Origin: Spirochaetales bacterium
GTDB lineage: Bacteria > Spirochaetota > Spirochaetia > Sphaerochaetales > Sphaerochaetaceae
DNA: 64,000 bases
Reading direction: 5' to 3'
Assembly (NCBI GenBank): GCA_017614375.1
Contig: JAGABZ010000007.1
Coordinates: 62,001-126,000 of the forward strand
Below, piece after piece: positions 4,759 through 23,696 of the stretch. Every line of letters begins with the position of its first letter. The first letter of the stretch is position 1. The notes below the pieces were generated by a model. The model saw only the letters and a program-made list of their open reading frames with translations, ran no database searches and was not told where the DNA came from. The translations under genes and the position numbers were made by a program.

Positions 4759-5697
4759 TCAGATTGATGCTATTGAGCGGTACTGTTCGAGGGCGTCTAT
4801 GAACCAATGCTCGGGTTTCGACAGAGTCTTGCCCGGGCAGAAACAGGCCACGACGCTGTGCCTGAGGTTGGCCGGGCTGATTCTGTAGAAGGCCACCCTT
4901 CTGTCGCTGTCCGGGGTGGAGGTGCATTCAAGTTCGTCGATAAGCGCCACGCGGTTTCCGGCGCGGACATAGTCCATCAGGTAGCTCCACACGGTGCTGG
5001 TCTCACGGACGTCGGGCTGGAAACCGAGCGAATCGACGAATCCTTCGATTATCGTCTGGGTCCGGCGGTAGTTCGGCAGGGCCATGGGGAAATCCCGGAA
5101 GCCGGCGGAGAACTCCTCCGGGGTAATCGAGGAAATCTCGGAAAAGCCCTTGAAGGGATGCTCCATGCAGAACGGATGTGAGGCGGGCACGGCCAGAAGC
5201 AGTTCGGTCTTGAAGACGGGAATCCGGGCCAGGGAGTTGACCGCAACCGGCTCCCAGACCAGGGCGAGGTTTGCCTTTTCGGTTTCGGCCTGAACCTCCG
5301 CCTCGGTGGATGACACCGACTCGACGGCGTTAATCGTGACCTCGGGGTGCTTATGGGAGAATTCCCTGATTACTGAGGGCAGAAAACTCTTGTAGAACAG
5401 CGGAGGCGCATAGATGGTCAGCTGTTTCTCGTTCATGGCGGTGTAGTTGCGCAGCTTGTCCTCGAAGTTGTTCCAGCGGTCCATCACGGGTTTTCCGTCA
5501 TGGACGACCTGCTGTCCGAACGTAGTCAGACGGGTTTTGACCCCGCCGCGGAAGAAAAGCTTGAATCCCAGTTCGCCCTCGACCTTTCTGATAGCCTGAC
5601 TCATGGCCGACTGGGTGACGTTGAGTTTCTCCGCCGCCATCGAGAAGTTGCCGTACTCGGCTATCGTAAGGATGTAGAGAAGTTCCCTGTTGGTCAT
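4759..5697 (-). CDS. LysR-family transcriptional regulator
   Basis: This 312-aa protein has the LysR winged helix-turn-helix at residues 1-60 (NFSMAAEKLNVTQSAMSQAI) and a substrate-binding domain from about 90 to 300. It ends 164 nt before the peptide-binding-protein gene on the same strand and is divergent from thrC. The most likely targets are therefore the peptide transporter operon and perhaps thrC. AAGGTG precedes the ATG. The effector is unknown. Confidence 0.88.
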   Translation of the reverse strand: MTNRELLYILTIAEYGNFSMAAEKLNVTQSAMSQAIRKVEGELGFKLFFRGGVKTRLTTFGQQVVHDGKPVMDRWNNFEDKLRNYTAMNEKQLTIYAPPLFYKSFLPSVIREFSHKHPEVTINAVESVSSTEAEVQAETEKANLALVWEPVAVNSLARIPVFKTELLLAVPASHPFCMEHPFKGFSEISSITPEEFSAGFRDFPMALPNYRRTQTIIEGFVDSLGFQPDVRETSTVWSYLMDYVRAGNRVALIDELECTSTPDSDRRVAFYRISPANLRHSVVACFCPGKTLSKPEHWFIDALEQYRSIASI

Positions 5698-5742
5698 GAG
5701 CGCACCTTAACCTTTGCTTATAGCATACACCCTGTTCAGTTT

Positions 5743-5770
5743 TTCTTCAACCGCGGCGGAAGTTGAAGAA
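5743..5770. promoter_or_regulatory. Inverted repeat between lysR-like gene and thrC
   Basis: TTCTTCAAC and GTTGAAGAA form a perfect 9-bp inverted repeat with a 10-nt centre. It overlaps the predicted -35 of thrC and lies 46 nt upstream of the LysR start codon, so it may be an operator. It could also fold as an RNA hairpin in the lysR leader. Confidence 0.45.
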
Positions 5771-5791
5771 CAGCGTCAAAAATACTATCAT
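5763..5791 (+). promoter_or_regulatory. Candidate thrC promoter
   Basis: TTGAAG and TATCAT are spaced by 17 nt, placing a start site near 5798 and a short leader before the ATG at 5813. The -35 half overlaps the inverted repeat at 5743-5770. Confidence 0.4.
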
Positions 5792-5812
5792 GGCCGAAAA
5801 GCGAGGCGGGAT

Positions 5813-7252
5813 ATGGAGTATCAGAGCACACGCAGCAACTACACCCTGGATTCGAAGTCGGCCGTTCTGGCCGGTATCGCCCCGGACGGGGGACTGTTCG
5901 TCCACCCCGACATCGGCTCACTGGGCTTCGATGCCTCTCTGGCCGTCACCCTTCCGACGCTGAAGATCATGGAGTACGTCATCTCCACCCTGCTTCCGGA
6001 CTTCAAGGACATCCCCTCCCTGGTAAGCCAGGCCTTCGAGGGCAAATTCGAGACTCCCGACCTTACCCCGCTGGTCAAGGCGGGTGACAACTACGTGCTC
6101 GAACTGTTCCGCGGACCTACCAGCGCGTTCAAGGATGTGGCGCTCTCCCTGCTGCCGGTGCTGATCCGCCATGCCGGAGCCAAAGACACGGTGACCGTAC
6201 TCACCGCCACGAGCGGGGACACTGGAAAGGCAGCCCTCGAGGGCTTCCACGACGTACCGGGTACGAGAATCGTGGTCTTTTACCCCCACGGGGGAGTTTC
6301 CGAAATCCAAAAGGCCCAGATGGTAACCCAGCAGGGCTCCAATGTGCACGTCTGTGCCGTGCGCGGCAATTTCGACAACTGCCAGACCGGGGTCAAAAAG
6401 GCCTTTGCCGACCTGGCCTCACGCGGTCTCTCATCGGCAAACTCAATCAACATCGGGCGGCTGGTGCCGCAGATCGTCTATTACTTCTCTGCCTACCGCG
6501 ACCTGATTGCCCGCGGGGTAATCACCTTCGGCGACAAGGTCGACTTCGTCGTCCCGACGGGGAATTTCGGAGACATCCTGGCCGGTTACTACGCCCTGCT
6601 CCTGGGGCTGCCGGTGGGCCGTCTGGTCTGCGCCTCGAACGAAAACAAGATCCTCGACGACTTTCTGAAAACCGGTGTCTATGACAAGCGCCGTCCGTTC
6701 TTCAGGACCGACTCACCTTCGATGGACATCCTCGTCTCGTCCAACCTGGAGCGGCTTCTGTTCCTGGCCGGAGGAAAAACAACCGTGAAGGTCAGGCAGT
6801 GGATGGAGAGTCTGGGCAGGGACGGAATCTTCAGGGTCGATGACGAAACACTCAGGGCCATTAGCGACGTCTTTGTATCGGGACATGCCACACGGGAGAT
6901 GACGGCAGAGGCAATCAGGATGGCCTGGGAAAAGGCCGGCTACCTCTGCGACCCGCATACGGCGGTGGCCTGGCATGTGGCTCAACAGTACAAAACCGAA
7001 AGCAAAACGGGAAATCCGGTCGTCATTCTTTCAACCGCCTCACCGTACAAATTCCCCCAGGCGGTGCTCGGAGCGCTCGGAAGGGATACCGCCGGAGTCG
7101 GTGAATTCGAGATGATGCGCATTCTGAACGCCATTACGGGAGTCCCGGTTCCGAAGAACCTGGCCTCGCTTGAGGGCAGGCCTGCGCGCTTTGACACCGT
7201 CATCGACATCGGGGAAATCACACCCTATGTCGAATCGGTCCTCAACGGCTGA
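5813..7252 (+). CDS. thrC: Threonine synthase
   Basis: This 479-aa PLP enzyme converts O-phosphohomoserine to threonine. The family opening (ST-SNYTLDSKSAVLAGIAPDGGLF) and the PLP-lysine motif GPTSAFKD (Lys107) are present, followed by the TATSGDTGKAAL phosphate-binding loop. The ATG at 5813 is preferred because AGGCGGG precedes it and the conserved N-terminus starts there. It is convergent with thrH, 1 nt apart. ThrH homologues can phosphorylate homoserine in vitro, so the pair may supply the last two steps of threonine synthesis. Confidence 0.95.
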   Translation: MEYQSTRSNYTLDSKSAVLAGIAPDGGLFVHPDIGSLGFDASLAVTLPTLKIMEYVISTLLPDFKDIPSLVSQAFEGKFETPDLTPLVKAGDNYVLELFRGPTSAFKDVALSLLPVLIRHAGAKDTVTVLTATSGDTGKAALEGFHDVPGTRIVVFYPHGGVSEIQKAQMVTQQGSNVHVCAVRGNFDNCQTGVKKAFADLASRGLSSANSINIGRLVPQIVYYFSAYRDLIARGVITFGDKVDFVVPTGNFGDILAGYYALLLGLPVGRLVCASNENKILDDFLKTGVYDKRRPFFRTDSPSMDILVSSNLERLLFLAGGKTTVKVRQWMESLGRDGIFRVDDETLRAISDVFVSGHATREMTAEAIRMAWEKAGYLCDPHTAVAWHVAQQYKTESKTGNPVVILSTASPYKFPQAVLGALGRDTAGVGEFEMMRILNAITGVPVPKNLASLEGRPARFDTVIDIGEITPYVESVLNG

Positions 7253-7253
7253 A

Positions 7254-7859
7254 TCAGCCTCGGACAAAATCCTCTATCTCGGCAAACAGCTCGTCGTAGG
7301 TCAGACAGAGCTTGACGTCCTTTTCGGTCTCCAGGATCTTCTGCGGGGCGCGGAACAGACAGCCGCGGTCGGCGCAGCGGATCATCGACAGGTCGTTGTA
7401 GCTGTCGCCCGAGGCGAAGGTCCTCAGCCCCATGTTTCTGAAACCCTCGACGGCGTGTCTCTTGCCATCGGTCTGCCTCAGGCGCATCCCGCAGAGCATG
7501 TTGTCCTTATCCACCACCAGAGTGTTGCAGAGAATCGTCGGCCAGCCGAGCTGTTTCATAAGCGGACGGGCGAACTGGTCAAAGGTATCGCTGAGGATCA
7601 CGACCTGGGTGACCGAACGGACCTTTGACAGAAACTCCCCTGCCCCTTCAAGCGGCCTGATGGTCGCGATTGTGTCCTGGATGTCGGAGAGGGTCAGGTT
7701 GTTCCGCCTGAGGATGTCCATGCGGAAATCCATAAGTTTGGCATAGTCCGGTTCGTCCCTGGTGGTTCTCTCCAGCTCGGGGATTCCGACCTTTTTTGCA
7801 AAGGCAATCCAGATTTCGGGGACGAGCACACCCTCCAGATCGAGACAGACAATTTCCAT
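7254..7859 (-). CDS. thrH: Bifunctional phosphoserine phosphatase / homoserine phosphotransferase ThrH
   Basis: This 201-aa HAD protein closely resembles Pseudomonas ThrH, which dephosphorylates phosphoserine and can pass the phosphate to homoserine. The HAD nucleophile motif is CLDLEGVLVPEIW (Asp7), motif II is VILSDTF, and motif IV is ASGDSYNDLSM. The family feature DIQDTIATIRPLEGA is also present. GGAGGG precedes the ATG. It is convergent with thrC with one base between stops. Which of the two activities matters in vivo cannot be decided here. Confidence 0.92.
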   Translation of the reverse strand: MEIVCLDLEGVLVPEIWIAFAKKVGIPELERTTRDEPDYAKLMDFRMDILRRNNLTLSDIQDTIATIRPLEGAGEFLSKVRSVTQVVILSDTFDQFARPLMKQLGWPTILCNTLVVDKDNMLCGMRLRQTDGKRHAVEGFRNMGLRTFASGDSYNDLSMIRCADRGCLFRAPQKILETEKDVKLCLTYDELFAEIEDFVRG

Positions 7860-7927
7860 ACGGCCCTCCGGTTTCGCTTTTACGACAAATTAGCCCAATT
7901 CAGGCTCTTTTTCAAGGCAGAACTGCG

Positions 7928-7957
7928 TTGACAGTCCGCCTGCAGCGGTGCTAGGAT
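7928..7957 (+). promoter_or_regulatory. Candidate pyrG promoter
   Basis: A consensus TTGACA is followed after 18 nt by TAGGAT. Transcription would begin near 7964, just before the terminator-like stem of the leader. Confidence 0.55.
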
Positions 7958-7968
7958 GCGCCCATGAT

Positions 7969-8017
7969 GACAGGGGAGGTGCGGAGGCGTACCTTCCCTG
8001 TCTCTTTTTGTACAGGG
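7969..8017 (+). promoter_or_regulatory. pyrG leader with attenuator-like terminator and competing hairpin
   Basis: GACAGGGGAGGT (7969-7980) pairs with ACCTTCCCTGTC (7991-8002), a 12-bp stem with one G-U pair and a 10-nt loop, directly followed by TCTTTTTG. That is the form of an intrinsic terminator between promoter and gene. The CCCTGT arm (7996-8001) can instead pair with ACAGGG at 8012-8017, which overlaps the pyrG ribosome site. The two folds exclude each other. Regulation by nucleotide supply is inferred; the predicted start base is not the GGG needed for the Bacillus slippage mechanism. Confidence 0.6.
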
Positions 8018-8026
8018 GGAAAAGCC

Positions 8027-9640
8027 ATGGCCAAGTACATTTTCGTCACCGGCGGAGTCGTTTCGGGACTGGGCAAGGGAATCACCGCCGCCAGTCTGGG
8101 CCGCCTGCTTAAAAACCGCGGTCTTAAGGTTGCCGCGCAGAAGCTCGACCCCTACATGAACGTCGACCCGGGCACCATGAGCCCGCTGCAGCACGGAGAA
8201 GTCTTCGTAACCGAGGACGGAGCCGAAACCGACCTAGACCTGGGCCACTACGAGCGCTTCATCGACGAGAACCTGAACAAATACTCCAACCTGACCAGCG
8301 GAAAGACCTACTGGAACGTTCTGCACAAGGAACGCGCAGGTGAATACCTCGGTCACACCGTCCAGATCATCCCCCACGTCACCGACGAAATCAAACGCTT
8401 CATCTACGCCGTCGGCTCAAAGACAAATGCCGATATCGTAATCACCGAAATCGGCGGCACCGTCGGAGACATCGAGAGCCAGCCTTTTCTGGAGGCAATC
8501 CGTCAGGTCGGCCATGAGGTCGGGGAGCAGAGCCGGCTGTTCATCCACGTCACCCTCGTTCCCTACCTCAGTTCCAGCGGTGAACTCAAAAGCAAACCGA
8601 CCCAGCACTCGGTAAAGGAGATGCAGAGTCTGGGAATCTTCCCCGACATCATAGTCCTGCGCAGCGAACACCCGATCGACCAGGACACGATGGACAAGAT
8701 TTCGATGTTCTGCAACGTCGACGAGGACTGCGTCATCGAGAACAGGACCCTAAAAAGTCTCTACGAAGTCCCGGCGATGCTCCACAGCCAGAGGCTGGAT
8801 GACATCGTCTGCTCGAAACTCAGAATCAGGACACCGCGCTGCGACATGAGCCAGTGGAACAGGATGGTTGCCCGGGTACAGGCGGCCAAGGAGTCAGGCC
8901 GGACGGTGACAATCGCCATGGTCGGAAAGTACACCGCCCTTCACGATGCCTATCTGTCGGTGGTCGAGGCGCTGCACCACGCCTCGTTCGCCAACTGCTG
9001 CGATCTTCAGATCAAGTGGATTGAGTCGGAGGATATCACTTCGGATGCCAAGGCAAAGGAGCTTCTGGGTTCCGTCGACGGTATCCTCGTGCCCGGAGGC
9101 TTCGGGGACAGGGGAATCGAGGGGATGATCCTCGCCGCCCGTTACGCCCGCGAAAACAACAAGCCCTATCTGGGAATCTGCCTCGGAATGCAGATTGCCT
9201 GCGTGGAATTCGCCAGGAACGTCATCGGCTGGAAGGACTCCCACTCCACCGAGTTCGCACCGGAGACGACGCACCCGGTCATCGACATCATGCCCGACCA
9301 GCGCAACATTCACCAGAAGGGCGGCACGATGAGGCTCGGAGTTTACCCCTGCTCGGTGCGGGAGGGAACATTGCTCCGCGAACTGTATTCAGAGGCGGAG
9401 ATCCAGGAGCGCCACCGCCACAGGTATGAGTTCAACAACGATTACCGCGAGGATTTCACCAGGTCGGGAATGACGCTCTGCGGAACCGCGCCGGACGACA
9501 GTCTGGTCGAAGCGGTCGAGCTTCCCCGGAGTACCCACCCGTTCTTCATCGGAGTCCAGTTCCACCCGGAGTTCAAGAGCAGACCGACAAAGGCCCACCC
9601 CCTGTTCGACGGTTTCGTGGCCGCTTCCCTGGGCAACTGA
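8027..9640 (+). CDS. pyrG: CTP synthase
   Basis: This 537-aa cytosolic enzyme aminates UTP to CTP using glutamine. The N-terminal amidoligase domain begins [17 protein letters not shown], with the P-loop, and the C-terminal class I glutaminase has Cys385 (GICLGMQ) and the His513/Glu515 pair (QFHPE). The length is typical of the family. The ATG at 8027 follows AGGGGGA and starts the conserved domain; an upstream ATG at 7964 lies inside the predicted leader. It stands alone on the plus strand, divergent from thrH. Confidence 0.97.
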
Positions 9641-16661: not shown

Positions 16662-18308
16662 TTACTCAAAACCGAGATAGAAGCTGTAGACTTCCTGACC
16701 GCCGTAGTATGTGTCAACCTCGAGGTCAGGGAATCTCCGCCTGATGATTTCATAGGCCTTCAGACTGTCGGCCTCGGTAACCCCATTGCCCCAGAATAGG
16801 GTGAGAATCTCCATGTCCTCAATTCCCTCGATGTCGTCCAGCAGATCCGACAGAGCTTCGAACATGCTCTGCCGGGCGCAGACGATGTGGTCCTTGCGGT
16901 ACATGGCGATGAAATCACCCTTTTTTACTTCCAGTCCGTCCAGAACGGCATCGCGGGTGGCGCAGGCAATCTGTGCGCTGGTGACATTCGATGCCGCATC
17001 GGTCATATCCGCAACTAATCCTTCCGTGCTCGGCACATCAGGCGTGTATATACTAAGAGCACTGAAGCCTTCCTGAACCGTTTTCGTCGGAACGACAAAG
17101 ACATTCGCGCCCTTTACCATCTCACTTGCCTGCTGCGCCGCCATCATGACATTCGCATCATCCGGCAGAATCAGATAGTTCTCGGCATCGATTGAGGAAA
17201 TAGCGTTTACAAAATCCCCGGTTGACGGGTTGTCCCCGAGTGTTATGTCCGCCCCCTGCCCTCTGAAGACCTCGGCAATCCCCTCCCCGGGTGCCACGGC
17301 AATGACGGCGATGTTCTTTTTCGGAGCCTTTTTCATCAGTACTTCCTGATGCTGAAGGGCCATGTTCTCGATTTTTACAGTCAGGAACTCACCGTATTTT
17401 CTGCACTGCTGCAGAACCAGGCCCGGATCGGGGGTATGGACGTGAATCTTTATCACATCGCCGTCCTTGAAGCAGACTATCGAATCTCCGCCAATGGACT
17501 GCAGATAATCAAGAATCACCTGCGGGTCAAAGCTTTCAACATCAACCTTTGCGCTTTGAAGCCTGAGAAGCAACTCGGTACAGTATCCGAACTGAAGCTC
17601 ACTGTCGCGGGTGAAGGCATCGAGATTGATATCGGTCCCTGAGGGTTTGCCGGCGTTCTCCTGATGCTGCGACGGCTTGAAAGCCGGATCCTCAAGAGCC
17701 TGCTTCATTCCCTGGGCGATATAGCAGTACCCGGCCCCGCCGCTGTCGATTACACCGGCCTTTGCCAGAATCGGGAGCATCTCGGTCGTTCTTTTCAGAG
17801 TATCATCCGCCTGAAGAACGTGAATCTCCAGGAGTTGTTCAATTGTTTCTATTGATTCAAGTTGCTTTGAAACCGCCTCCGAGGCCTCCCTGAATACGGT
17901 GAGGATCGTTCCCTCGGTCGGATTGACTACCGCCGCGTAAGCCTGTTTAACTCCGCTTTCAAAAGCCCCGGCCAATTCTGCAACGCCCGCTGTTTCCAGA
18001 CCGCTGAGGGCGTTTGCGAATCCCCGGAAGAACTGCGAAAGAATAACCCCTGAATTTCCCCTGGCTCCGAGAACCGTCCCCGAAGCAAATGCCGAGGCAA
18101 TCCTGCCCAACGGCGTCGCGGGTTCAAGTCCGCTGATGTCGGCCAGACCCTTGTCCATGGTACAGCACATATTGCTGCCCGTATCCCCGTCCGGAACGGG
18201 AAAGACGTTCAGGTCGTTGATGTATTCTTCGTTGGCTCGTATGTTATCAGCTCCGCCGGCCAGCATGCGGGCGAAAGTCCGCCCGTCAAGCGTCTTGGTG
18301 CTGCTCAT
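16662..18308 (-). CDS. Fatty acid kinase catalytic subunit FakA (DhaL/YloV type)
   Basis: This 548-aa protein has an N-terminal DhaL-like kinase domain with the metal/nucleotide motif VPDGDTGSNM near residue 40 and ARGNSGVILSQ, then a middle domain and a DegV-like C-terminal domain. With a FakB protein it phosphorylates fatty acids. The ATG at 18308 follows AGGAGATAG and begins the conserved part. It heads the lipid operon, 75 nt after an ABC-2 permease gene on the same strand, so a promoter of its own is not certain. Confidence 0.9.
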   Translation of the reverse strand: MSSTKTLDGRTFARMLAGGADNIRANEEYINDLNVFPVPDGDTGSNMCCTMDKGLADISGLEPATPLGRIASAFASGTVLGARGNSGVILSQFFRGFANALSGLETAGVAELAGAFESGVKQAYAAVVNPTEGTILTVFREASEAVSKQLESIETIEQLLEIHVLQADDTLKRTTEMLPILAKAGVIDSGGAGYCYIAQGMKQALEDPAFKPSQHQENAGKPSGTDINLDAFTRDSELQFGYCTELLLRLQSAKVDVESFDPQVILDYLQSIGGDSIVCFKDGDVIKIHVHTPDPGLVLQQCRKYGEFLTVKIENMALQHQEVLMKKAPKKNIAVIAVAPGEGIAEVFRGQGADITLGDNPSTGDFVNAISSIDAENYLILPDDANVMMAAQQASEMVKGANVFVVPTKTVQEGFSALSIYTPDVPSTEGLVADMTDAASNVTSAQIACATRDAVLDGLEVKKGDFIAMYRKDHIVCARQSMFEALSDLLDDIEGIEDMEILTLFWGNGVTEADSLKAYEIIRRRFPDLEVDTYYGGQEVYSFYLGFE

Positions 18309-18383
18309 TTCTATCTCCTGTGGAAGATATATATCCACAATCGACAATAGCACAATGACCGGTCGGAATCAACAGAAAGCGTT

Positions 18384-18980
18384 TCAGGCAAAGGACCGGC
18401 GGTCAAGCAATCTGACTGAAAAGGCCGAAGACACGCACACAAGGACGCAGGAGGCCGCGAACAGTCCGATAGAAGCTGCCGTACCGAGATGCACGATGTA
18501 GTCTCCGCGGCTTCCCAGAACCAGCATTCCGAAGAAAAGGAACATGAAGACCACCCGGGACTTGTCCGAGCCCAGACTGTAAAGCACGGGGAACATCACC
18601 GCCGCGAAAAGCAGTGAGAGCGAGGAGCCGAACGCCAGGCTTTCCAGACTCTCCGCCCAAGGGGTGCCGAGGGCGAGCGTTACTCCGACATGCAGAACAG
18701 CTGTAAACACAATCATAATCAGAGCAAAGAGATAACGTGCACGAACAATCTGAGCTGTACTTATCGGAAGTGTACGGACATAGGCGTTGAAGCCTGATTT
18801 CTCGTCGTAGCCGAAGGCCAGCATCGCCGTGACCATCATCAGCACCGGTTCCATCGAGGCGAAGAAACCCAGACTCTTGATAAAAAAAACGGTCGCTCCG
18901 ACATAAAGGGCGAGAAGCCCGAACACCACTATGTACTGCGAAAGGACGGTCTTGAAATCCTTATAAACCAAACCGCGCAT
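18384..18980 (-). CDS. ABC-2 type membrane subunit
   Basis: This 198-aa protein has about six hydrophobic segments and opens with a short amphipathic helix (RGLVYKDFKTVLSQ), typical of the small ABC-2 permeases partnered with a separate ATPase. An alternate start 33 codons upstream was rejected; GGGAGGAGG lies just before the ATG at 18980. It overlaps the ATPase gene by 20 nt. With that partner it may export or protect against a small molecule, or move an envelope component. The substrate cannot be told. Confidence 0.78.
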   Translation of the reverse strand: MRGLVYKDFKTVLSQYIVVFGLLALYVGATVFFIKSLGFFASMEPVLMMVTAMLAFGYDEKSGFNAYVRTLPISTAQIVRARYLFALIMIVFTAVLHVGVTLALGTPWAESLESLAFGSSLSLLFAAVMFPVLYSLGSDKSRVVFMFLFFGMLVLGSRGDYIVHLGTAASIGLFAASCVLVCVSSAFSVRLLDRRSFA

Positions 18981-19773
18981 CCCTGGCCTCCTCCCTGCGT
19001 ACGAAACATCCGGCAATCTGGGCAAGCGTCGGCTCGGACAGATTGAAACGGTTCTCCTTGAAGTCCTCCCGGCGGACAAGGGCCTTTGTTCCCGAAGCGG
19101 TTCTGCGGGCCCCGATCAGTTTCCGCCGGTTCACGGTCTGCATTTCCTTTTCATCCAGGGTAATGACCCTGTACATCTCCTTCAGGGCCCGGACACTGTC
19201 GCAGAACAGCAGACTGCCGGCATACATCAGACCCGCGCGGTCACAGCAGGCCACATCGGCGGCGCTCCGGGCCGAAAGCAGCACCGAGCCCCCTGTTTCC
19301 TTCAGGTAAGACATGACCCGTTCCCCGACCCACGACGGGCAGTCAGGCGGACAGTCGACTACCAGCAGATCCGTCCTGCGGGCCATGGCTGCGCAAAAGG
19401 CCAGTCTCATCTGCCCGTCGGTGTTGAGTGCCCCGGATTTGACCTTTTCCCCGAGTCCCATCTCCGCAAGCAGAGCGGAGTATTTTCCGCTGTCCCAGGA
19501 ATCATGGATCATTCCGAGCATCCTGCCGATCTGCGAAAGGGTCATCGAACCGGGGAAACCGGCTCCCGCCACCACAGCACCCACCGAAGTATTCTCAGCG
19601 ATGGAAATCTCTCCGCCAAAGCGGCGGATCATGCCCAAAACAAGCCTGACCACCGCCGAACGTCCGCTGTCATTCTCTCCGAAAAGCCCCAGTGAACCTG
19701 AGCGCGGCAGTTCGAACGACACGTTTTTGACGTTCCCGTAATCCAGTCCCGATACGCTGAGGATGTTCTGCAT
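18961..19773 (-). CDS. Degenerate ABC transporter ATPase-like protein
   Basis: This 270-aa protein aligns with BcrA/YtrB-type ABC ATPases, but key residues have changed. The Walker A site reads GENDSGRSA, with Arg38 for the invariant Lys and Ala for Thr. The signature position reads LNTDGQ instead of LSGGQ. Walker B reads LLVVDCP, without the catalytic Glu. The H-loop region reads LLSARSAAD, without His. ATP hydrolysis is therefore doubtful. It lies 9 nt after a caspase-like gene and overlaps the permease gene, so it still seems to be maintained as part of an operon. Confidence 0.8.
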   Translation of the reverse strand: MQNILSVSGLDYGNVKNVSFELPRSGSLGLFGENDSGRSAVVRLVLGMIRRFGGEISIAENTSVGAVVAGAGFPGSMTLSQIGRMLGMIHDSWDSGKYSALLAEMGLGEKVKSGALNTDGQMRLAFCAAMARRTDLLVVDCPPDCPSWVGERVMSYLKETGGSVLLSARSAADVACCDRAGLMYAGSLLFCDSVRALKEMYRVITLDEKEMQTVNRRKLIGARRTASGTKALVRREDFKENRFNLSEPTLAQIAGCFVRREEARDARFGL

Positions 19774-19782
19774 CGGACCTCC

Positions 19783-20778
19783 CTACAATCTCAGACCGTC
19801 GAACAGGACCAGATCGTCGCTGCTTCCGGTGATCTTCATATGTTGTTTCGTTCTACCGCCAACATCCTCGCTTCTGAGCACCTCAACCGCTGCGGCGGCA
19901 AGGTTTCCCAGGCAGACGGTATCTCCGCTCTGGGCGGGAATGGTGTCCTCAAGCGTCGATGACGCGCCGTTCCATCCCAGGGCCTTGAGGATGCCGTAGG
20001 TAAAGATTCCGTGCTCCAGTGAATCACTCTCCCAGGACTGCTCATACGGCTTGCAGGCCGTCAGGATGTACAGTCCGTCATTGGATATCGCCGGAGACTG
20101 CGAAAAGAGCAGCTCCAGAGTGCTGACGGAGTTGGCGGATGTGGCGTAGATGGTGCTGTCGGTCGTAACGTTGTTCTCACCGATCAGTGAGCCGCTGTAG
20201 CAGAAATCGCAGATCAGCGCTTTTTTGCCGGGAAAACAGTTCAAAGTGGAAATCAGATCTTCGCCTGTTACGTAGTCCACATACAGTTTGGGCCCGGAGG
20301 GGCTGAGCACCGCCAGCCCGCAGTTGTTCTGCCATTTGTTGGAATCGTAGTAGCTGTAATGCGATTTGTTCTCACTGCCGTTGTTGTAGCCGTGGGAAGA
20401 GACGAATACGACCAGCAGGTCATCCTCTGAGGCCAGAGCGCCGAAGGAGAGGATTTTCGCGTCTATTCTCGTCCTGGTCGGATAGTGGTCATCGGACCTG
20501 GTGTAGTCGTCGCTGAAGTCAAACAGCTCACATTCCCTGCCGGTCTCGTTGCACAGGGCCTGGAAGCACAGCCCGATCTGCCGTGCATCGGCACGGGTGT
20601 ATTTGAGTTTGGTGACCGATTCGTCCGAGCCCGGGACCAAAGCGTTCTCATACCCGATTCCGATTGTGACGATGTACATCTTTCCCCGGGTGGCCAGAGC
20701 CCTGAACAGGTCGCAGCCGCACAGACAGAGGAGAATCGCAACGCAAACGGCAAACGCGGGAATCAGGCGCCTTTTCAC
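19783..20778 (-). CDS. Caspase-like (peptidase C14 fold) lipoprotein
   Basis: This 331-aa protein has a signal with a lipobox-like LCGC (Cys22), so it is likely lipid-anchored and faces the periplasm or the surface. The rest is a caspase-type domain: catalytic His129 in VFVSSHGYN and Cys193 in ICDFCYSGS, the D-x-C-x-S-G form of bacterial caspase homologues. The start is GTG with GGGAGGTG upstream and overlaps the preceding gene by 4 nt (GTGA). It precedes a degenerate ABC pair. Proteolytic activity and targets are unknown. Confidence 0.85.
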   Translation of the reverse strand: MKRRLIPAFAVCVAILLCLCGCDLFRALATRGKMYIVTIGIGYENALVPGSDESVTKLKYTRADARQIGLCFQALCNETGRECELFDFSDDYTRSDDHYPTRTRIDAKILSFGALASEDDLLVVFVSSHGYNNGSENKSHYSYYDSNKWQNNCGLAVLSPSGPKLYVDYVTGEDLISTLNCFPGKKALICDFCYSGSLIGENNVTTDSTIYATSANSVSTLELLFSQSPAISNDGLYILTACKPYEQSWESDSLEHGIFTYGILKALGWNGASSTLEDTIPAQSGDTVCLGNLAAAAVEVLRSEDVGGRTKQHMKITGSSDDLVLFDGLRL

Positions 20779-21341
20779 AGTTCACCTCCCCGCGGATAGC
20801 CGTCAAATCCGACTCTCAGCCCGACTCCCGCACAGACTCCCAGGATGTCCTTACGGTACGAAACCTCCAGCGGTACGCTGAGGGCCAGAAAAACAGAACC
20901 GTCGTCGACCAGCGTGAACAGAGCCCCAAGCGACCCGGAAACGAAGCCGAACCGCACATCGCCGTCGTAATAGCCCTTCCCCAGGGTTCCGGACAGCTCA
21001 AACGCCAGAAAATCGTCCCAATAAAACGAAACGGCGGCTCTCCCGCCCACGCTGCGGAAACTCTTCAGCCGCGTCTGGTCGTACACAGGGGAACGTGTGA
21101 CGAAACCGAGCACACCGGAAACGGAAAAACCGACCCTGCCTGCCTTGATTGACACCGGGTTGAGAATCAGCTGCCCGAAGCCCTGCGTCCGAAACGGAAC
21201 ATCCGTCTTAAGCGAATCGGCCAGCGGTACAGCTCCGTAGTATCCCAGTCTGATTTCAGCCGACGGAACCCAGGCGGCGCCTGCGTACAGCACGCCCGCG
21301 GTCAGCAGAAGAATCAATACAGGAATACACCTTTTGGTCAT
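20775..21341 (-). CDS. Small exported beta-rich protein, possibly an outer-membrane barrel
   Basis: This 188-aa protein has a signal peptide (PVLILLLTAGVLYAGAAW) and then alternating hydrophobic/polar strands with many Gly, Tyr and Phe (EIRLGYYGAVPL, AAVSFYWDDFLAFELSGTL, FLALSVPLEVSYR), ending in GVGLRVGF. That is typical of a small outer-membrane beta-barrel. I do not recognise the family. It is the first gene of a four-gene operon and overlaps the caspase-like gene by 4 nt, suggesting that both work in the envelope. Confidence 0.65.
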   Translation of the reverse strand: MTKRCIPVLILLLTAGVLYAGAAWVPSAEIRLGYYGAVPLADSLKTDVPFRTQGFGQLILNPVSIKAGRVGFSVSGVLGFVTRSPVYDQTRLKSFRSVGGRAAVSFYWDDFLAFELSGTLGKGYYDGDVRFGFVSGSLGALFTLVDDGSVFLALSVPLEVSYRKDILGVCAGVGLRVGFDGYPRGGEL

Positions 21342-21459
21342 AAGGCAAGTCTAGCACATCCGCCGCGGTCGCATGCAACAGGATTCGGCAAAAAACATAC
21401 CCGCTATGAACAACCCGAAGGCCGCCGGGGCGACCTCCGGGAAGTTTTTCACTGAGATC

Positions 21460-22080
21460 TTAGGCGCTCTGGGCAGGTGAATCAGGCTGCACTGATGCCG
21501 CAGGGGCCTGTGGAGCCGGGGCCTGGACCGGGGCCGGGGTTTGGGACTGAGGGGCGGGAGCGGATGCGGGAGCGGGGTTTTCCGCGGGGATACCGGAAAC
21601 GCTGCCGGTGGTGTTCTGCTGCCGGGCCTCGGCGGTCGCGTCGAAGTTCATCTCGATGACCTTCTTGTCCGGCACATCGTACGAAGGATCGGAAATCTCC
21701 ACGACCTGCTGAGGCACGGGTCTGGCGGCCGGTTTGGGCTGGGCCTGATGCGGCTGGTTCTGGAATTCCACATGCTCGGCCACGACGACGATCTTTTCGC
21801 GGGATTCCTCCCTGTCGTTCTTCCAGCGCTCCTGCTTAAGCCGCCCCAGAATCCTCACACCTCTGCCTTTCTGCAGGTGCTTTGCGCAGAGTTCGGCCGT
21901 CTTCCCCCATGTGACGATGCTGAAAAACGATGATTCGGTGGTCAGCTCCTTCATTTTGTTTATGAATGAGCGGTTCACGCCGATGCTGAATCTGGTCATC
22001 GGGACGTTTCCGTCCAGGGTCATTACATCCGGGTCACGTGTCAGGTTTCCTTCGAGCAGTACTGAGTTGAGATTATTCAT
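21460..22080 (-). CDS. ssb: Single-stranded DNA-binding protein
   Basis: This 206-aa protein has an N-terminal OB fold (NNLNSVLLEGNLTRDPDV, TRFSIGVNRSF, FFSIVTWGKTAELCAKHLQKG) of about 110 residues. The tail from about 125 is Pro/Ala/Gln-rich. It ends QPDSPAQSA rather than in the acidic DDDIPF-like tip through which most bacterial SSBs recruit partners. The ATG at 22080 starts the conserved domain and has GAGGCGA before it. A second SSB may exist elsewhere in the genome. Confidence 0.93.
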   Translation of the reverse strand: MNNLNSVLLEGNLTRDPDVMTLDGNVPMTRFSIGVNRSFINKMKELTTESSFFSIVTWGKTAELCAKHLQKGRGVRILGRLKQERWKNDREESREKIVVVAEHVEFQNQPHQAQPKPAARPVPQQVVEISDPSYDVPDKKVIEMNFDATAEARQQNTTGSVSGIPAENPAPASAPAPQSQTPAPVQAPAPQAPAASVQPDSPAQSA

Positions 22081-22270
22081 ATTCGCCTCACATCGGGAGA
22101 AGTGCAAAGCGGCGCCCGGGAACCTGCAACGCAGCATCCGGACGCCTGACAGCCCTTTCCTCGCCCTACTATCCGCGCGAAACCCGCTTTTGCTGAGAAA
22201 AAAAAGCAAAAAATCCAAAAATCCTTTTCACGTTTTCCCTGTGAGTCCGATATTTCCGACTTTCAGGCCG
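22081..22270. other. ssb upstream region
   Basis: No gene of good quality is seen. The stretch has A/T-rich blocks (AAAAAAAAGCAAAAAATCC) that could act upstream of an ssb promoter on the minus strand; I see no convincing -35/-10 pair or operator. Confidence 0.35.
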
Positions 22271-22317
22271 AAAAAAAGGGTGTCCGGCATATCCTGCAGA
22301 GGACTGGCCGAACACCC
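22271..22317 (-). terminator. Intrinsic terminator of module 1 transport operon
   Basis: On the minus strand GGGTGTTCGGC pairs with GCCGGACACCC (one mismatch) and is followed by seven T. It starts 23 nt after the binding-protein stop and separates module 1 from ssb. Confidence 0.85.
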
Positions 22318-22340
22318 CGGTAAACCGGAACAGGTCAGGT

Positions 22341-23696
22341 TTACTTGTTGGTAAGGTTGTACATCTTAAAGGCTTCGTTGATGGTCTCGCACATCTGATC
22401 GATGGATGCCTGGACATCAGCGCCGTTTATGACAGCCTCAAGACAGGTAGCACCGGCGGGTGAATAGATGTTGTTGACCGCGGTAAAGGCGTAGAACGCG
22501 CTGTAGTCGGACTTTCCGAGTTCCTCGAGGACCCTGGCGGTGTAGTTGTCGGAAGCGAGGATTTCCTTGTACTCCGGAGTCTGTGCAACCGCGTCATACA
22601 TGGGCAGATAACCGGTCTTGGCCATCCAGCGGAGCTGGACAGACGGGGAATCGAAGTACTTGATGAACTCGTAGGCACCCTGCTGCTGATCCGGATGACC
22701 GTTGTTGATGATGAAGAAGCCGTTTCCGGAGGAGCAGAAGCCTGTCTGCTTTCCGTTGTCGGTCGCGGAGAACATCGGAACGAATCCATAGGTTCCGCCG
22801 GTCTGGCTGAATACATCATTCATTGTGCTCTTGTACGAGTTGGTGGTGATAATCATGGCCACTTCCTTCGCACCCAATGCCGGGGCGAGGGCCGTCTTGA
22901 CCTTTGCGCCGACCGGATAGACATATCCCTTGGCTCCGAGGTCTGCCCACTCCTTGTAGTAGTTGTAGCAGACGGTCTTCAGGGGTTCCTCATTGTAGAG
23001 AACCTTGGTCGGAAGTCCGTCGACACCGTTGTTGTTGTCGACAGTGTACAGGCCTTCTCTGTGGAAGCAGTAGTTTGCCCAGATTCCGGAGTGCTCCTCG
23101 GAAATCGCGTACTTCGCGTATCCGCCGTCTCCGATCTTCAAAGCCGCCTCATAGACCCTGTCGAAGCTGGTCAGAGAATACGGATCGATTCCTGCAGCCT
23201 CGAAAATCTCGGCATTGTAGAAGAAACCGGAAAGTGAGAATCCGAGGGGGATTCCTACCAGGCGGCCGTTTACACCGTAAGTCGCGACCAGGTTACCGTA
23301 GAAGTTGTAACTCCAGTTCTTGTCGGCGTCGATGAAGTCCTGAGCGTACTTCACCAGTCCGGAGTGGAGGTACGATCCGACGGTCTCGGACGAGCTGTTG
23401 CACATCGCGGGCAGGTTCTCCCTGTCGGTGGACATGAGCTTAGCGAACTGGTCGTAGTAGCCGCCGTTGTACTCAGGGACGACCTCGTACTTGTCCTGGC
23501 TCGCGTTGAACTCGGCGATGATTCCGTCTACGAATTCCGCTGAAGAACCGGTGTAGCACCTCCAATACGGGACGATAATCTTACCGTCTTCTGTTTTCGG
23601 GCTGTCTGATTCCGCGGCTTTTTCGCCTGATCCCTGTGCGAACAGGACGCACATGGCAACCAGAAGAACGCCGAACACCATAAGCAGTTTTTTCAT
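22341..23696 (-). CDS. Sugar-type ABC transporter substrate-binding protein (module 1)
   Basis: This 451-aa exported protein belongs to the extracellular solute-binding family 1. A signal peptide (MKKLLMVFGVLLVAMCVLFA) is followed by QGSGEKAAE, a spirochaete pattern. The mature part begins KIIVPYWRCYTG and has the NSSSETVGSYL segment also seen in the module 2 paralogue. The ATG at 23696 has AAAAGGAGAGG before it. It is the last gene of the operon, after the permeases, which is the reverse of the usual order. The family binds sugars, glycerol-phosphate or polyols; its ligand here is unknown. Confidence 0.92.
   Translation of the reverse strand: MKKLLMVFGVLLVAMCVLFAQGSGEKAAESDSPKTEDGKIIVPYWRCYTGSSAEFVDGIIAEFNASQDKYEVVPEYNGGYYDQFAKLMSTDRENLPAMCNSSSETVGSYLHSGLVKYAQDFIDADKNWSYNFYGNLVATYGVNGRLVGIPLGFSLSGFFYNAEIFEAAGIDPYSLTSFDRVYEAALKIGDGGYAKYAISEEHSGIWANYCFHREGLYTVDNNNGVDGLPTKVLYNEEPLKTVCYNYYKEWADLGAKGYVYPVGAKVKTALAPALGAKEVAMIITTNSYKSTMNDVFSQTGGTYGFVPMFSATDNGKQTGFCSSGNGFFIINNGHPDQQQGAYEFIKYFDSPSVQLRWMAKTGYLPMYDAVAQTPEYKEILASDNYTARVLEELGKSDYSAFYAFTAVNNIYSPAGATCLEAVINGADVQASIDQMCETINEAFKMYNLTNK

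Follow-up and report, generated by a model that had tools for sequence, protein, structure and literature searches.

A conserved gene pair in Sphaerochaetaceae couples a predicted small outer-membrane beta-barrel to a metacaspase-like lipoprotein

The function of bacterial metacaspases is a long-standing question that has usually been framed around programmed cell death. The nearest working analogue of the system described here is the PorU-PorV couple, in which a beta-barrel protein keeps a caspase-fold (clan CD) cysteine enzyme attached to the outer membrane (PMC5562754). A lipoprotein working with an outer-membrane barrel is also known from RcsF (PMC4942254), and in Slam systems the gene of an outer-membrane protein adjoins that of the lipoprotein it serves (PMC5449769). 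Regarding metacaspases themselves, the available part of a 2012 survey records helices resembling signal peptides and 14 metacaspase operons with OmpA domains, and no small-barrel pair (PMC3501461). Here we have examined a locus of a Spirochaetales bacterium (assembly GCA_017614375.1, contig JAGABZ010000007.1; genome G000, 1.54 Mb) that lies in a stretch of 64,000 nucleotides (nt), hereafter the window, whose numbering is used for positions in this locus. A sequence-only reading of this DNA had described a four-gene operon for an exported barrel-like protein, a caspase-like lipoprotein, a degenerate ATP-binding cassette (ABC) ATPase and an ABC-2 permease. We found that the conserved unit consists of two genes and not four, namely the barrel and the metacaspase.

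The four genes were all confirmed as minus-strand open reading frames in the order barrel, caspase, ATPase and permease, each overlapping the next or separated from it by at most 9 nt. The features of the first two are as follows.

20775-21341, minus strand: barrel gene, encoding a predicted exported 8-stranded outer-membrane beta-barrel protein of 188 amino acids (open reading frame, AlphaFold2 model, homologues directly upstream of the caspase)
21282-21341, minus strand: barrel signal peptide, approximately residues 1-20 (sequence and model helix 3-19)
19783-20778, minus strand: caspase gene with a GTG start, encoding a metacaspase-like lipoprotein of 331 amino acids (Pfam, profile, AlphaFold2 fold)
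20713-20715, minus strand: codon of the lipobox Cys22, in LCGC (sequence and alignment of pairs)
20587-20589, minus strand: codon of Asp64, second predicted S1-pocket acid (invariance and alignment with metacaspase-4)
20392-20394, minus strand: codon of the catalytic His129 (sequence and invariance among pairs)
20206-20208, minus strand: codon of Asp191, predicted S1-pocket acid (invariance and alignment with metacaspase-4)
20200-20202, minus strand: codon of the catalytic Cys193, in D-F-C-Y-S-G (sequence and invariance among pairs)

The barrel stop codon and the GTG start of the caspase overlap by 4 nt, an arrangement that is frequent in relatives. A single-sequence query detected the caspase lipoprotein in 37 of 61 relatives, and a profile search, for which the caspase profile was built from a narrower alignment than all 36 caspases, covered 110 genomes of the same family. 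Results showed that the caspase was present in 103 of these genomes and the barrel likewise in 103; 101 carried both, five neither and four only one. The co-occurrence gave a Fisher P of 3.5e-6, a value that ignores shared ancestry and takes as independent genomes that are not. Two of the four discordant cases corresponded to assembly breaks (in G005 only 52 nt separate the barrel from the end of the contig and in G130 the caspase lies at bases 6-299), in a third, G066, the caspase is preceded at 23 nt by a divergent barrel, and G001 is the sole real barrel-only genome. The co-conservation in spirochaetes that the sequence-only reading proposed as a check was thus found to hold for one half of the gene set, the barrel and caspase staying together, and to fail for the other, since the ABC pair is separate outside the genus.

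The barrel lay directly upstream at 105 of the 150 caspase loci listed, and 18 more loci were the second caspase of a tandem array; contig edges and divergent barrels that escape the profile explain part of the remaining 27. At one locus (L046:7942-8578), two opposite-strand genes stand between a barrel candidate and the caspase, the second of them weakly YafQ-toxin-like, below the Pfam cut-off. Named carriers comprise Sphaerochaeta, Pleomorphochaeta, Ca. Ornithospirochaeta and unclassified Sphaerochaetaceae and Spirochaetales, on which basis we take the family to be Sphaerochaetaceae. The pair is also present in further Spirochaetia families (L048, L053, L070, L131, L183, L186, L189). Residue conservation and genomic setting were assessed on 57 non-redundant pairs, 37 of which were located by thiamine importer (thi) genes, 4 by typA and 16 elsewhere; the pair is relocated among at least four genomic settings. 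At each of five loci two complete pairs were present, resulting from tandem duplication. In four of these five, the first barrels cluster together and so do the first caspases, and the same is true of the second copies. The true pairing of copies scored best among 32 swaps, one swap being nearly equal, and the mirror-tree correlation was r = 0.76.

The caspase matched Peptidase_C14 in Pfam (33.3 bits; cut-off 21.4), and a profile of its relatives matched metacaspase-4 at 8e-17. Its AlphaFold2 model (predicted local distance difference test, pLDDT, 83) resembled Arabidopsis AtMCA4 (6w8r) with a Z of 22.9 over 231 residues and Geobacter GSU0716 with a Z of 19.1; a predicted caspase fold and the His/Cys dyad of the C14 metacaspases are both found in this protein. 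The intact His129/Cys193 dyad and the lipobox noticed in the sequence-only reading were confirmed in the DNA. Loss of the dyad in most homologues would have counted against that reading; D64, H129, D191, C193 and S195 proved invariant in 57 of 57 pairs. D64 aligned with the D of the metacaspase-4 motif GCVNDV and D191 with the D of DSCHSG, and these two acids are predicted to line an S1 pocket with Arg/Lys specificity. Metacaspases cut after Arg or Lys, and the protein of the window may therefore be a protease with the same basic specificity. The lipobox LCGC follows an N-terminal hydrophobic stretch and its Cys22 was aligned in 56 of 57 pairs; the +2 residue was mixed (Glu in 42 of 84, Ser in 21 of 84). 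Together, the C14 match, the fold, the dyad and the lipobox support the predicted envelope anchoring of a caspase-fold protease; lipidation would occur on Cys22, and an outer-membrane or surface location appears plausible.

Several other caspase-related frames were noted along the way. Two caspase paralogues of the congener G002 (L031:11044-11991 and L060:26-997) have lost the dyad (GKG/SAH and GQG/CDH compared with GHG/SCY) and are candidate pseudoenzymes; neither has a barrel of its own upstream, and one is at a contig edge. Elsewhere in the window genome, at G000:C1:168564-168812 (L197), the caspase profile weakly matched a second site (E 2.4e-7), which lies in an open frame of 1615 amino acids. 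Caspases of Treponema bryantii and Clostridiales were set aside as other families, being longer proteins without a barrel.

The barrel protein matched no Pfam family. Its AlphaFold2 model (pLDDT 92.1) consists of one N-terminal helix (residues 3-19) and eight strands, and its best matches among solved structures were an E. coli OmpA model and NspA, each with a Z of 18.4. The signal peptide and the closed 8-stranded barrel expected of an outer-membrane protein are both present in the model, and we consider the protein a predicted 8-stranded outer-membrane protein of OmpA/NspA fold. Inspection for a C-terminal beta-signal placed the last strand at 166-179, followed by a 9-residue tail modelled at low confidence. 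Extracellular rim loops of outer-membrane barrels are usually variable. When the highly conserved positions were mapped according to OmpA topology, R51, S82, S84, F95, R163 and D165 fell at the extracellular rim, and F112, P157 and G174 fell away from it. The sequence-only suggestion of a likely outer-membrane partner for the caspase is in line with this co-inherited, predicted 8-stranded barrel.

In relatives, the commonest gene order was a thiamine pyrophosphate (TPP) riboswitch, thiB, thiP, thiQ, barrel and caspase, followed by a convergent uvrB and the gene of an HtrA-like protease. The riboswitch exceeded the gathering score in all seven thi loci scanned, and thiQ and the barrel, compared at 39 loci, were between -53 and 111 nt apart. 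Being the most prevalent, the thi site is probably the ancestral position of the pair, and since the pair ends a TPP-riboswitch-thiBPQ operon in most relatives, it is probably expressed there when thiamine is short. The window genome has its thi locus, with a riboswitch, on another contig (L198, G000:C5:156000-168000, 5580-9307), where thiQ abuts uvrB with no barrel or caspase in between. This empty site implies that the pair has left the thi site. The congener G002 retains a lone barrel at the old thi site and carries the full pair beside typA. An Rfam scan of positions 17500-23500 of the window found no RNA; hence, the thiamine link applies to the pair in relatives and does not extend to the copy in the window. 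Further features of these neighbourhoods deserve mention. The HtrA-like trypsin-PDZ gene after uvrB (L047:9726-11087 and equivalents) places two envelope proteases in one neighbourhood. In G014 (L049:7429-11127), genes that by eye resemble a biotin energy-coupling factor importer (BioY, ATPase, EcfT) precede the caspase, a second vitamin importer beside it, and a barrel-like protein with a weak profile match is encoded on its other side, after the caspase. In the caspase-less G001 (L161:903-3180), the lone barrel stands after thiQ and before a DUF1538 gene.

The reading that we favour, and to which we give a slightly better than even chance, is that the barrel docks, displays or gates a lipid-anchored metacaspase that cuts proteins of the envelope or the cell surface after basic residues, the pair being probably thiamine-responsive in relatives. 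The gene content, co-inheritance, dyad, lipobox and operon position, as they can be read from sequence, point in this direction, as do the two predicted folds and the predicted S1 acids. According to this proposal, the barrel protein would be built into the outer membrane with its eight strands, and the metacaspase, once exported, would receive a lipid on Cys22 that anchors it to the envelope beside the barrel. The barrel might then serve as a docking or gating partner, that is, as an anchor, a display route or an activity switch, and the targets of the enzyme would be envelope or surface proteins, cleaved after Arg or Lys. In relatives, the pair at the end of the TPP-riboswitch-thiBPQ operon would be expressed at low thiamine, and in the window species it would have been relocated to a place ahead of an ABC-2 exporter cassette with no share in the core function. 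Physical interaction, location, basic specificity, proteolysis and thiamine control are thus what we infer from these data.

Several observations weigh against this proposal. Acidic lipobox +2 residues can favour inner-membrane retention in E. coli and Leptospira, and Glu is common at this position, in which case the metacaspase and the barrel would occupy different membranes. The case for thiamine control is drawn from gene order, and the window pair is outside the thi operon. The mirror-tree correlation can also come from shared species history. Finally, three genomes (G001, G002:C109 and G015:C139) have kept a lone barrel, with no adjoining caspase, at the former thi site, which implies that the barrel can act without the caspase.

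The same lone barrels bear on a different explanation, namely that the barrel is the part of thiamine acquisition that lies in the outer membrane, and that the metacaspase is a passenger, linked to it but with a mechanism of its own. The order TPP riboswitch-thiBPQ-barrel with its short gaps fits this idea, and a precedent exists in Bacteroides, where OMthi is an outer-membrane thiamine transporter under a TPP riboswitch (PMC5613172). We nevertheless regard it as unlikely. Barrel and caspase are found together away from thi genes in about 20 of the 57 pairs and have been duplicated jointly, the thiBPQ genes of the window genome have no barrel beside them, and an 8-stranded barrel has no wide pore. 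The docking reading might also be extended to a thiamine-responsive cell-surface protease, a riboswitch-induced pair that releases or admits vitamin-bearing material or remodels the surface during thiamine starvation. This extension is doubtful; if true, it would mean that a caspase relative in bacteria serves nutrition.

It could also be that the barrel is the substrate, the metacaspase clipping its first extracellular loop after a conserved Arg, so that the barrel is opened, shed or turned over. No other barrel residue is as conserved as R51 (43 of 57 pairs), which lies at the boundary between loop L1 and strand 2 and is followed in most cases by Ser or Thr (P49-F50-R51-T52 in the window, often P-x-R-[S/T] in relatives); this would suit the established preference of metacaspases for Arg/Lys and the invariance of the predicted S1 acids. 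Strand parity, however, indicates that R51 probably points into the barrel, where its role would be structural; 12 of the 57 pairs have neither R nor K at this position, some having W or Y; and dedicated protease-substrate pairs usually have a less ordered cleavage loop. On these grounds the substrate explanation seems improbable.

The remaining features of the locus concern the ABC genes and the boundaries of the transcription unit.

18961-19773, minus strand: ABC ATPase gene with degenerate catalytic motifs (Pfam, alignment with the congener)
19657-19680, minus strand: degenerate Walker A, GENDSGRS (sequence)
18384-18980, minus strand: ABC-2 permease gene (ABC2_membrane_5) with an ATG start, encoding 198 amino acids (Pfam)
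21414-21441, minus strand: terminator-like hairpin between ssb and the barrel gene (12-bp stem, 9 GC pairs, weak U tail)

The caspase and the ATPase are separated by 9 nt, and the ATG start of the permease lies inside the ATPase gene with an overlap of 20 nt; a 231-residue permease frame listed from a TTG at 19079 was rejected as too long in favour of this ATG. Downstream of the permease, yloV, plsX and degV run on the same strand and leave the unit without a downstream bound. The four-gene operon of the earlier reading is thus real in its genes and spacing, and does not stand as a bounded unit, being instead two genes plus two. The hairpin, a consensus match, is a possible upstream boundary of the barrel gene unit. 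A promoter consensus scan of positions 18000-22500 found no sigma-70-type sites. The permease matched ABC2_membrane_5 clearly (89.6 bits; cut-off 25) and is 40% identical to the G002 copy, and the ATPase barely exceeded the ABC_tran cut-off (27.1 bits; cut-off 25). Comparison with G002 agreed with the degenerate ATPase and non-canonical ABC pair described from the sequence: GENDSGRS replaces GENGAGKT in Walker A, ...VVDCP replaces LDEP in Walker B, NTDGQ replaces LSTGM in the signature and SAR replaces SSH in the H-loop. The window ATPase has thus lost all its catalytic motifs, as in a decaying or repurposed protein.

The ABC genes adjoin the caspase solely in the window species and G002, and they are a genus-level neighbour outside the conserved pair. 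In G002, a GntR-ABC-permease cassette with a canonical ATPase occurs within and after a 570-nt interval downstream of the caspase; in the window, the 9-nt gap leaves no room for a GntR gene. These genes share permease family and, in the congener, gene order with GntR-ABC-ABC2_membrane_5 cassettes of the YtrA/Pmt type, from which the window copy differs in having no adjoining GntR head and no canonical ATPase motifs. The notion of a single device made up of all four genes, for envelope export, stress or lipoprotein processing and much as suggested earlier, finds some backing in the order barrel-caspase-(GntR)-ATPase-permease, which both pair-keeping species of the genus maintain despite different flanks (typA in G002, ssb/yloV in the window), so that a genus-level association of the block with the pair may exist. 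This backing comes from two genomes only, the G002 block is an ordinary cassette headed by its own GntR regulator, and no intact catalytic motif is present in the window ATPase. Because all relatives outside the genus in which the ABC pair was found carry it away from the caspase, we reject the four-component device as very unlikely. A defence role was also raised earlier; here it would take the form of an anti-phage or cell-death system in which the barrel senses phage and the caspase carries out the killing, and caspase-fold proteases do occur in defence systems such as TPR-CHAT/Csx29 (PMC10028731). This reading is scarcely credible and is rejected because PADLOC matched none of the four proteins and the pair is near-universal and vertically co-inherited in the family, not patchy; moreover, export signals place the pair outside the cytoplasm, and most of the loci examined had no recognised mobile or defence genes nearby.

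In this clade, a metacaspase has one fixed barrel partner and, in most relatives, including cultured Sphaerochaeta, a riboswitch-linked operon position, which makes its location, partner, inducer and substrate directly testable. The pair points to an envelope or nutrient role and not to cell death.

In agreement with the earlier reading, which knew of no described system of this composition, neither a barrel-metacaspase pair nor a metacaspase tied to a TPP riboswitch was found in the open-licence full texts searched; the pair is apparently a conserved two-gene envelope module undescribed in the open literature searched. Gene 2 has in common with bacterial and plant metacaspases (GSU0716, AtMCA4, AtMCA9) the fold, the His/Cys dyad and the predicted S1 acids, and solved metacaspases are not known to be lipoproteins that have an outer-membrane partner. 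The barrel shares the 8-stranded fold of OmpA/NspA/OmpX/OmpW-type small barrels (Z up to 18.4), from which it differs by its lack of a Pfam match, its link to a metacaspase and its conservation partly at the extracellular rim. Unlike this pair, RcsF senses stress, contains no protease domain, and threads through abundant porins instead of having a dedicated gene partner. Slam is a larger barrel with an N-terminal tetratricopeptide repeat domain, whereas gene 1 encodes a bare 8-stranded barrel of 188 amino acids and does not belong to that family. In the PorU-PorV couple, the enzyme is a sortase of gingipain type (C25) and the barrel a far larger one of FadL type; here, in contrast, the enzyme is a C14 metacaspase lipoprotein (Pfam C14, no C25), the barrel has eight strands and no type IX secretion system genes are near, which places the pair outside that system. 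By analogy, the pair might be regarded as a variant of a known theme, that of caspase-fold enzymes anchored at the outer membrane.

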